Assembly: GCA_025966365.1 (NCBI GenBank)
Contig: JAICWV010000017.1
Location: forward strand, 1-36,646
DNA length: 36,646 nucleotides
Origin: Chloroflexota bacterium
GTDB lineage: Bacteria; Chloroflexota; UBA5177
Reading direction: 5' to 3'
Positions within the stretch are counted from its first letter, which is position 1. Every line of letters begins with the position of its first letter. The notes below the pieces were generated by a model that was not told the DNA's origin, did not search any database, and saw only the letters and a program-made list of their open reading frames with translations. Made by a program: the position numbers and the translations under genes. Below, one piece after another: positions 10,076 to 12,282 of this stretch.

Positions 10076-11218
10076 GTGGGTAACGGAGTCAAAGTCTTTT
10101 CGATCGGCGGCATTGGCATTTATGTCAATTGGAGCTGGATCATCGCCATTGCCATCGTGACCTGGTCGGTGGGCGATTTCTTCCATGTCACCTACCCTTC
10201 CTGGTCAACCGGCACCGCCTACGCACTGGGCCTCCTTTCCGGCGTTCTCCTTTTCGTCACCGTTCTCATTCACGAGCTCGCCCACTCCTTCACGGCCCGG
10301 GCCAACGGACTGCCCGTCAACACCATCACCCTCTTCATCTTCGGCGGCGTGTCCAATCTGACGCGCGAGCCGCAGACGCCCCGGATCGAGTTCCTGGTCG
10401 CCATCGCCGGCCCGCTGATGAGCCTGGTTCTGTCGGGCATCTTTTATGTCCTCTACATCGCTCTACACGGCGGTCCCACCGAAGTCACCGCGGTCCTCGG
10501 CTATCTGGCCTCGGTCAACCTCATCCTGGCGATCTTCAACCTGATCCCCGGGTTTCCGCTTGACGGTGGGCGGGTACTGCGGTCGATCGTGTGGGCGATC
10601 ACCGGCAATCTCCGCCGCGCCACCCATATCGCCAGCAACATTGGAGACGGGTTCGGCTATCTGTTCATCGTGGCGGGTCTCCTGGAGGCCTTCGTCGGGG
10701 GGGACGTGATCGCCGGAATCTGGCTGGCATTTATCGGATGGTTCCTGCACAACGCTGCCACCGCCAGCTACCAGCAGGCTGTGATGGACCGCGTCCTTAT
10801 CGGAGTGGAGGTTCGCAACGTCATGGACCCGGCGCCGGCGGGAGTCGGCCCCAGTCTCACCATCCAGGAGGCAGTGGAGGGACATATGATGACCCGCGGC
10901 ACTCGCGCGCTGCCCGTGAACGGGCCGGATGGCAGCCTTCTCGGTCTCCTCACTCTCAGCGATGTGCAACAGGTCCCGCGGGACGACTGGGCCACCACGC
11001 CGGCGAGCAAGGTCATGACCTCGTTGGACCACCTCCAGACCACCACCCCGGACGCCGGTCTGCGCGAAGCCCTGGCGGCCATGGCGGAGCACAATTACAA
11101 CCAGCTACCGGTGGTCTCCAACGGCCGGGTGGTCGGTATCCTCAACCGCGGGCACGTCCTGCAGTGGATCCACCTGCGCGAGGCCCTGGCGCAAAAGCAA
11201 GAAGCCGGGAAGAGTTAA
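10076..11218 (+). CDS. Site-2 protease family (M50) membrane metalloprotease with two CBS domains
   Basis: The 380-residue protein is a polytopic intramembrane zinc protease. The N-terminal part has about six hydrophobic segments, with HELAH (residues 66-70) giving two zinc histidines and the catalytic glutamate, and NLIPGFPLDGGR (about 155-166) giving the aspartate ligand. The C-terminal half (about 245-370) is a tandem CBS pair (VRNVMDPAP..., ASKVMTSLD...), which in this subgroup senses adenine nucleotides. Such proteases cut membrane-anchored regulators, but the substrate here is unknown. GGAG seven bases before GTG 10076 supports the start. Its stop overlaps the convergent peroxiredoxin stop by four bases. 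Confidence 0.93.
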   Translation: MGNGVKVFSIGGIGIYVNWSWIIAIAIVTWSVGDFFHVTYPSWSTGTAYALGLLSGVLLFVTVLIHELAHSFTARANGLPVNTITLFIFGGVSNLTREPQTPRIEFLVAIAGPLMSLVLSGIFYVLYIALHGGPTEVTAVLGYLASVNLILAIFNLIPGFPLDGGRVLRSIVWAITGNLRRATHIASNIGDGFGYLFIVAGLLEAFVGGDVIAGIWLAFIGWFLHNAATASYQQAVMDRVLIGVEVRNVMDPAPAGVGPSLTIQEAVEGHMMTRGTRALPVNGPDGSLLGLLTLSDVQQVPRDDWATTPASKVMTSLDHLQTTTPDAGLREALAAMAEHNYNQLPVVSNGRVVGILNRGHVLQWIHLREALAQKQEAGKS

Positions 11219-11721
11219 ACCTCTCCAGCAGCAGGCAGGGCCGCAACCGCCGTCAATATTTCCGGGATCGGGGGCAGGCCGCCGGAGTCTGCGCCATACC
11301 AGGCATAGCGCACGGTCCGCGCGGCATCGATGACGAAGGCTGACCTGGTATGGACGTTCCGGATCAGACCCGAGGCGCGCGAAGGAATTCCATATGCCGC
11401 CATGATCTCGCGATTGGCGTCGCTGAGCATGGGGAAGGAGATGCCGAGCTCTCCTGCCCAGACACGGTGGCAATACGGACTATCGCTGCTCAGAGTCGCT
11501 ACCTCGACGTTCTCACGGCGAAACTCACCGTATGCGTCCCGAAACTGGGACACCTGATTCCGTCAGCCGCCGGTGAAGTCCAGCACGTACGAGGTCAAGA
11601 CCACCCCCCGGTTGCCTGCGAGCAGTGCACCCAGGTCAAGCTGGACGATCTCTCCTTCACGCGCCGCCATCACTGTGAAATCGGGCGCGGCGTCGCCGGG
11701 CCGCAGCAGCGTCTTTTCCAT
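11215..11721 (-). CDS. Selenocysteine-containing peroxiredoxin (AhpC/TSA family), UGA at codon 53
   Basis: Translated from ATG 11721 the frame reads MEKTLLRPGDAAPDFTVMAA..., then LDFTGG, an in-frame TGA (11563-11565), then RNQVSQFRDAYGEF and on to TAA: 168 residues counting the UGA. A peroxiredoxin has its peroxidatic cysteine at exactly this place (DFTxxC.xQ..xFRD), so UGA stands for Sec. A second thiol in SDSPYCHRVWAGELG may resolve the selenenic acid. Downstream LSDANREIMAAYGI and the strand RSAFVIDAARTVRYAWYG complete the thioredoxin fold. AGGAGG seven bases before the ATG is a strong site, and no frameshift is needed. Ordinary gene calling would keep only the part after the UGA. It should reduce hydroperoxides. 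It follows the gamma-CA-like gene by 21 bases in the same operon. Confidence 0.87.
11534..11553 (-). promoter_or_regulatory. Bacterial SECIS hairpin for UGA recoding
   Basis: On the minus strand, nine bases after the TGA, GTGTCCC pairs with GGGACGC (seven pairs, one G-U) around the six-base loop AGTTTC. The loop starts 16 bases after the UGA and has G as its second base. Both fit the published bSECIS rules: a loop at 16-37 bases with a G among its first two bases. SelB would bind this hairpin and deliver Sec-tRNA. Confidence 0.78.
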
Positions 11722-11742
11722 CGCAGGCTCCTCCTTCCACCT

Positions 11743-12282
11743 TCATACGTCGGCCGTAACATGCTCCAGTCCGGCGGATCGATATCTCGCCGCCAGCCGC
11801 ACGTAATACTCCGCGCTCACCTCTATCCACTGCCTGGCCGGGCCCTCCAGCACTTTCTTGACCCGCGCGGGCGAGCCCGCCGCCACCGTGTCGGCCGGGA
11901 TCTGACCGCGCTCCAACACCACGCTTCCCGCGGCTACCAGGGCCCGAGGGCCTATATGGGCGTGGTTGAGGACAATCGCGCCCATGCCGATCAGGGCCCC
12001 ATCCTCGACCTCGCAGCCTTCCAGCAGCGCCCCGTGCCCGATGGTGACTCCGCGGCCCACGGTTGTCCCACGCCCGAGAGCGACGTGAATGACCGTGTTG
12101 TCCTGCACGCTGGTCCGTGCGCCAATCACGATTCCGTGCTCGCCGTGGTCGGCACGGAGCACGGCGCCATACCAGACGCTCGCCTCCTCCTCAACCACCA
12201 CGTTGCCGATGAGCACGGCCGTGGGGGCGACGAACGCCGTCGGCGCCACGCGGGGTGTGAAACCGTCTAGCGACACAATCAT
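11743..12282 (-). CDS. Gamma-carbonic-anhydrase-like hexapeptide-repeat protein, third metal ligand replaced
   Basis: This 179-residue left-handed beta-helix protein belongs to the gamma-class carbonic anhydrase/YrdA/PaaY group. Hexapeptide turns run through residues 15-130 (VAPTAVLIGNVVVEEEASVW and similar), followed by a C-terminal helix with AGSPARVKKVLEG. The first two metal histidines are present: H66 in VIHVA and H83 in TIGHGA. The third, expected five residues later in the usual HGC, is E88 (LLEGC). Metal binding may be altered or the protein may act as an acyl- or CoA-enzyme partner. The ATG at 12282 has a GGATGG a few bases upstream. It is the first gene of a two-gene unit with the Sec-peroxiredoxin. 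Confidence 0.9.
   Translation of the reverse strand: MIVSLDGFTPRVAPTAFVAPTAVLIGNVVVEEEASVWYGAVLRADHGEHGIVIGARTSVQDNTVIHVALGRGTTVGRGVTIGHGALLEGCEVEDGALIGMGAIVLNHAHIGPRALVAAGSVVLERGQIPADTVAAGSPARVKKVLEGPARQWIEVSAEYYVRLAARYRSAGLEHVTADV

Follow-up and report, generated by a model that had tools for sequence, protein, structure and literature searches.

Results

An in-frame TGA in a peroxiredoxin gene

The window, that is the whole 36,646-nt stretch of Chloroflexota DNA analysed here, carries on its minus strand a peroxiredoxin gene (prx, 11215..11721) that runs from an ATG at 11721-11719 to a TAA at 11217-11215 and contains an in-frame TGA at codon 53 (11563..11565, minus). Read across this TGA, the frame gives a product of 168 residues. 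A sequence-only reading of the locus, which gave no strand, had placed a ribosome site at the upstream ATG, and indeed AAGGAGGA can be read directly from the sequence at 11729..11736 (minus), about 7 nt before the start codon. It had also anticipated that a gene caller would yield a 112-residue piece after the UGA; this matches the list of open reading frames, where the only entry for this gene is a 112-aa frame that begins with GTG 3' of the TGA (11215-11553) and lacks the active site. The prx stop overlaps, at 11215-11218, the stop of a convergent gene for an M50-CBS protease (10076-11218, plus strand), which lies downstream of prx. On the other side, 21 bp upstream of the prx start and on the same strand, is a gene identified by Pfam and NCBIfam matches as encoding a gamma-carbonic-anhydrase-like (gamma-CA-like) hexapeptide protein (11743..12282, minus), and the two genes could be co-transcribed. 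Their pairing as a unit, which had been put forward from the sequence, did not hold up: in three related genomes (G003, G004 and G005), the regions extending about 8 kb from the orthologues showed none of the window's neighbours.

The 168-residue product matches the Pfam family AhpC-TSA (PF00578) over residues 8-139 with a score of 100.3 bits (cut-off 26), which places it in the superfamily by score; this match spans the TGA, in agreement with the claim that the frame is intact on both sides. In sequence alignments with PDB entries, the best of which are archaeal BCP-type peroxiredoxins and the 1-Cys AhpE, a Cys sits under codon 53, so the TGA does lie on the peroxidatic column, as had been proposed. 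An AlphaFold2 model with Cys replacing selenocysteine (Sec, U) has a mean pLDDT of 93.8, and the best solved-structure matches listed in a structure search with it are peroxiredoxins. Codon 53 is embedded in the motif DFTGG-U-RNQVSQFRD. Compared with the superfamily motif Pxxx(T/S)xxC, the active-site stretch V46-L-D-F-T50-G-G-U53 keeps the T, replaces C by U to give a TxxU motif (T50-G-G-U53), and has V in place of P.

Conservation of the TGA and selection on the gene

The nearest relatives (58, 51 and 48% identity) keep both the TGA codon and the motif LDFTGGU. More broadly, 400 genomes of the phylum were searched, and the 30 best matches, spread over many genera and referred to below as the clade, all (30/30) have exactly one TGA, at the position of codon 53, which confirms that the TGA at the peroxidatic codon is real and not a product of chance. 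In homologues the column at codon 53 holds U or C, the pattern expected by the sequence-only reading, and in an alignment of 74 homologues all in-frame TGAs but one fall either on this column or three residues earlier, the latter in a UxxC Prx-like group; the exception (L097) has its TGA outside the active site. In every pair compared, dN/dS was below 0.5 both upstream and downstream of the UGA (with dS near saturation for distant pairs), pointing to purifying selection on either side. The orthologue in G003 (L023, C171:17098-17583) keeps the Sec TGA and has an extra in-frame TAG at the column of the window protein's Tyr83, which is Tyr in relatives; this may reflect an error in sequencing or a gene copy in decay.

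The catalytic positions Thr50 and Arg126 are kept in the close clade. When the 30 best relatives were aligned, no conserved second Cys was found: most members are otherwise free of Cys, and the sole further Cys of the window protein, Cys84, is not conserved. The product also has no UxxC or CxxU pair, unlike thiol-disulfide oxidoreductases.

Selenocysteine machinery of the host

The host genome (3.59 Mb, 97.4% complete, 253 contigs) was searched for selA, selB, selC and selD, as the sequence-only reading had suggested, and all four are present, on contigs other than that of the window. The matches are 502.8 bits for selA, 75 bits for tRNA-Sec (selC), whose anticodon loop carries TCA (a UCA anticodon), and 381 bits for selD, which has an in-frame TGA near its start (SLVRCAGU); selB lies on two contigs (C122/C77) with an exact 141-nt overlap that jointly form one open frame. 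By this gene content the host would be able to insert Sec. TGA also serves as an ordinary stop elsewhere in the host, for example in the gamma-CA-like gene upstream of prx. Rfam and tRNA scans of the window itself returned nothing relevant. The host selD (contig C28) is itself probably a selenoprotein gene, and a second candidate Sec gene, Prx-like with a TUPFC (UxxC) motif, lies at C204:1386-1727; similar UxxC genes occur very commonly across the phylum.

We also compared TGA use with the presence of selA in 61 genomes (the host and relatives), 13 of which had no selA match above the cut-off. An active-site TGA occurred in 49/127 matches from selA-bearing genomes and in 0/17 from those lacking selA (Fisher p = 0.0007, a value that is only indicative, as the test ignores kinship and treats as independent matches that share a genome or come from relatives). 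The phylum includes complete genomes of 1.4-1.5 Mb without selA.

A candidate SECIS hairpin

Downstream of the UGA the window reads CGGAAUCAG-GUGUCCC-AGUUUC-GGGACGC. The last three segments form a proximal hairpin (11534..11553, minus) that we regard, from folding and from covariation in relatives, as a candidate bacterial SECIS element, with a 7-bp stem, the loop AGUUUC at a spacing of 16 nt from the UGA, and a folding energy of -11.2 kcal/mol. The loop of the best hairpin lies 16 or 17 nt after the UGA in 29/30 clade members. The limit of the published bacterial SECIS model, -7.5 kcal/mol, is reached by only 17 of the 30 in a search restricted to perfect stems, and by none of the 24 Cys homologues. 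Gene by gene, comparison with synonymous recoding gave a borderline result (median p about 0.06), and we therefore used covariation as well. Among 13 sequences sharing one stem register, three of the six pairs had changed on both sides, and the covariation score was reached by 0/500 shuffles. The strength of the hairpin as evidence lies in conservation and covariation across relatives rather than in single genes.

A distal hairpin, ACGGUGA-GUU-UCGCCGU (11515..11531, minus), has the apex GAGUUUC and follows the proximal one in the four closest species, with compensatory differences; a covariation test would need more sequences than these four. The proximal loop of G005 is without its G, and either hairpin may be the partner of SelB there.

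Loss of the active-site proline and phylogenetic placement

All peroxiredoxins have been described as carrying a Pxxx(T/S)xxC motif (PMC8945050), and Sec peroxiredoxins a conserved PxxxTxxU motif (PMC13188914). The column of this proline, seven residues before the Sec, corresponds in the window to codon 46 (GTG, 11584..11586, minus), which encodes Val, and of PxxxTxxU the window protein has the TxxU part only. This holds for most of its clade, where the position is V in 27 members and E, P and Y in one each, against a proline in 24/24 Cys homologues (Fisher p about 4e-12, with no correction for relatedness). Another 20 Sec relatives have V at this column in ten cases, H in seven, L in two and P in one. 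Other types of Sec peroxiredoxin in the phylum mostly keep the proline, for example those with YPGDFTFVU. Four of the further Sec relatives (L137, L139, L140 and L146) read FDFGRxU, with neither the proline nor the T/S, and may do something else.

In a tree of 63 rows the window protein groups with relatives from its own family and order (support 100/99); close to these is a large Sec clade (99/94) whose members belong to one other family, and support at deeper forks is weak. One Cys form with the proline (L025) joins two Sec forms at 92/77, so the change between Cys and Sec may have run in either direction. A search of genome contigs beyond the phylum sample found only distant Cys homologues.

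Discussion

Taken at the level of the gene, prx very probably codes for a small enzyme that removes peroxides and has Sec in its active site, and we hold with high confidence that the sequence evidence points to a real selenoprotein belonging to the known TxxU peroxiredoxins. In the mechanism that we propose, selenocysteyl-tRNA(Sec) would be delivered by SelB, attached to the hairpin that closely follows the UGA in the mRNA, so that codon 53 would be read instead of terminating translation. The selenolate would then attack peroxide to give a selenenic acid, and a thiol or redoxin from outside the protein would reduce the oxidised selenium. This last step is that of a '1-Sec' enzyme, which is expected because there is no conserved second Cys, and we infer that the most fitting description of the product is a 1-Sec peroxidase that depends on an external thiol for its reduction. 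The proposal builds on where the codon lies and how well it is conserved, on the hairpin and the host's Sec machinery, and on the predicted fold and the absent resolving Cys; on this basis we predict that Sec is in fact inserted, that the protein acts as a peroxidase and that an outside thiol or redoxin is its reductant.

Other explanations of the TGA deserve consideration. It could be a true stop in a pseudogene, or an assembly error, with at most the 112-residue fragment being made, as the output of a standard gene caller would have it; a fragment devoid of the active site, the same TGA in all 30 best relatives from many genera, and purifying selection acting before and after the codon make this exceedingly improbable, and we rejected it on the grounds of the conservation and the selection. 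A different possibility is that the UGA is read as another amino acid, such as Cys or Trp, through a suppressor or recoding. The Cys found in homologues at the codon-53 column is in line with this idea, which is nevertheless very improbable in a host with complete Sec machinery, including a tRNA-Sec with a UCA anticodon, where TGA terminates ordinary genes, a SelB-type hairpin follows the UGA and the active-site TGA is confined, within the sample, to selA-bearing genomes.

Accepting Sec at codon 53 still leaves its role to be considered. Having lost the proline, the protein might be mainly a redox sensor or another redox protein rather than a peroxidase, a reading for which one can cite the change of Pro to Val in 27 of the 30 clade members, the Val, His or Leu that replaces it in 19/20 further Sec relatives, and the missing resolving Cys. 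On the other hand, the active-site positions Thr50 and Arg126 are kept in the clade and no UxxC or CxxU pair of the thiol-disulfide oxidoreductase type is present, and we consider a main role other than peroxide removal unlikely. Within the preferred reading as a Sec peroxidase, the missing proline (Val46) could alter activity. One tentative idea, to which we would give somewhat less than even chances, is that Sec use in the clade is tied to the loss of the proline, either because Sec made the proline dispensable or because both changed jointly towards a differently shaped active site served by an outside reductant. The association offers a direct test of the role of the proline in peroxiredoxins, as the natural Sec/Val and Cys/Pro forms are exchangeable. 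In a wider context, the locus is a case in which standard annotation truncates, and thus hides, a selenoprotein, and such genes are common in the phylum.

Several known systems resemble the window protein in part. The nearest cysteine-based ones are the 1-Cys AhpE (Rv2238c) and the archaeal BCP-type enzymes (2ywn, 2cx3, 3hjp), its best PDB sequence matches at about 60-65 bits, and the model superposes on Bcp4 (3hjp) with TM-scores of 0.85/0.90. AhpE works with one Cys only (PMC8945050), akin to the expected 1-Sec window enzyme. Unlike the window protein, however, these enzymes rely on a Cys and retain the Pro located seven positions ahead of it, and identity to them is only about 30%. The Prx-like thiol:disulfide oxidoreductases (UxxC; PMC9312934), one of which is encoded in the host genome (contig C204), share PF00578 and the use of Sec, but in them the Sec precedes the peroxidatic column by three residues and is paired with a Cys, whereas that of the window protein lies on the column itself. 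PrxU (NCBIfam NF040737) is likewise a peroxiredoxin and gave the best match among NCBIfam models, a partial one over residues 4-137; with 61.7 bits where the cut-off is 270, the window protein falls outside this equivalog.

The closest likeness is to the 'Prx, TxxU' selenoprotein family (PMC1794560, PMC2398784, PMC13188914), with which the window protein shares the PF00578 fold, a peroxidatic Sec in TxxU, and a UGA followed by a hairpin. As described in PMC13188914, this family has PxxxTxxU, whereas the window protein has Val46 and the proline is absent from almost the whole clade; the proline is retained in another group of Sec peroxiredoxins from the phylum (YPGDFTFVU), which is placed elsewhere in the tree. 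A literature search, beyond whose reach lay the alignments in figures of older surveys, found no description of a proline-less Sec clade. The Sec peroxiredoxin of Eubacterium acidaminophilum (2001), as cited in PMC9312934, indicates that enzymes of this kind have been known for more than two decades. Overall, the kind is not new, and the proline-less, Sec-specific clade with its covarying hairpin represents a distinct variant of it.
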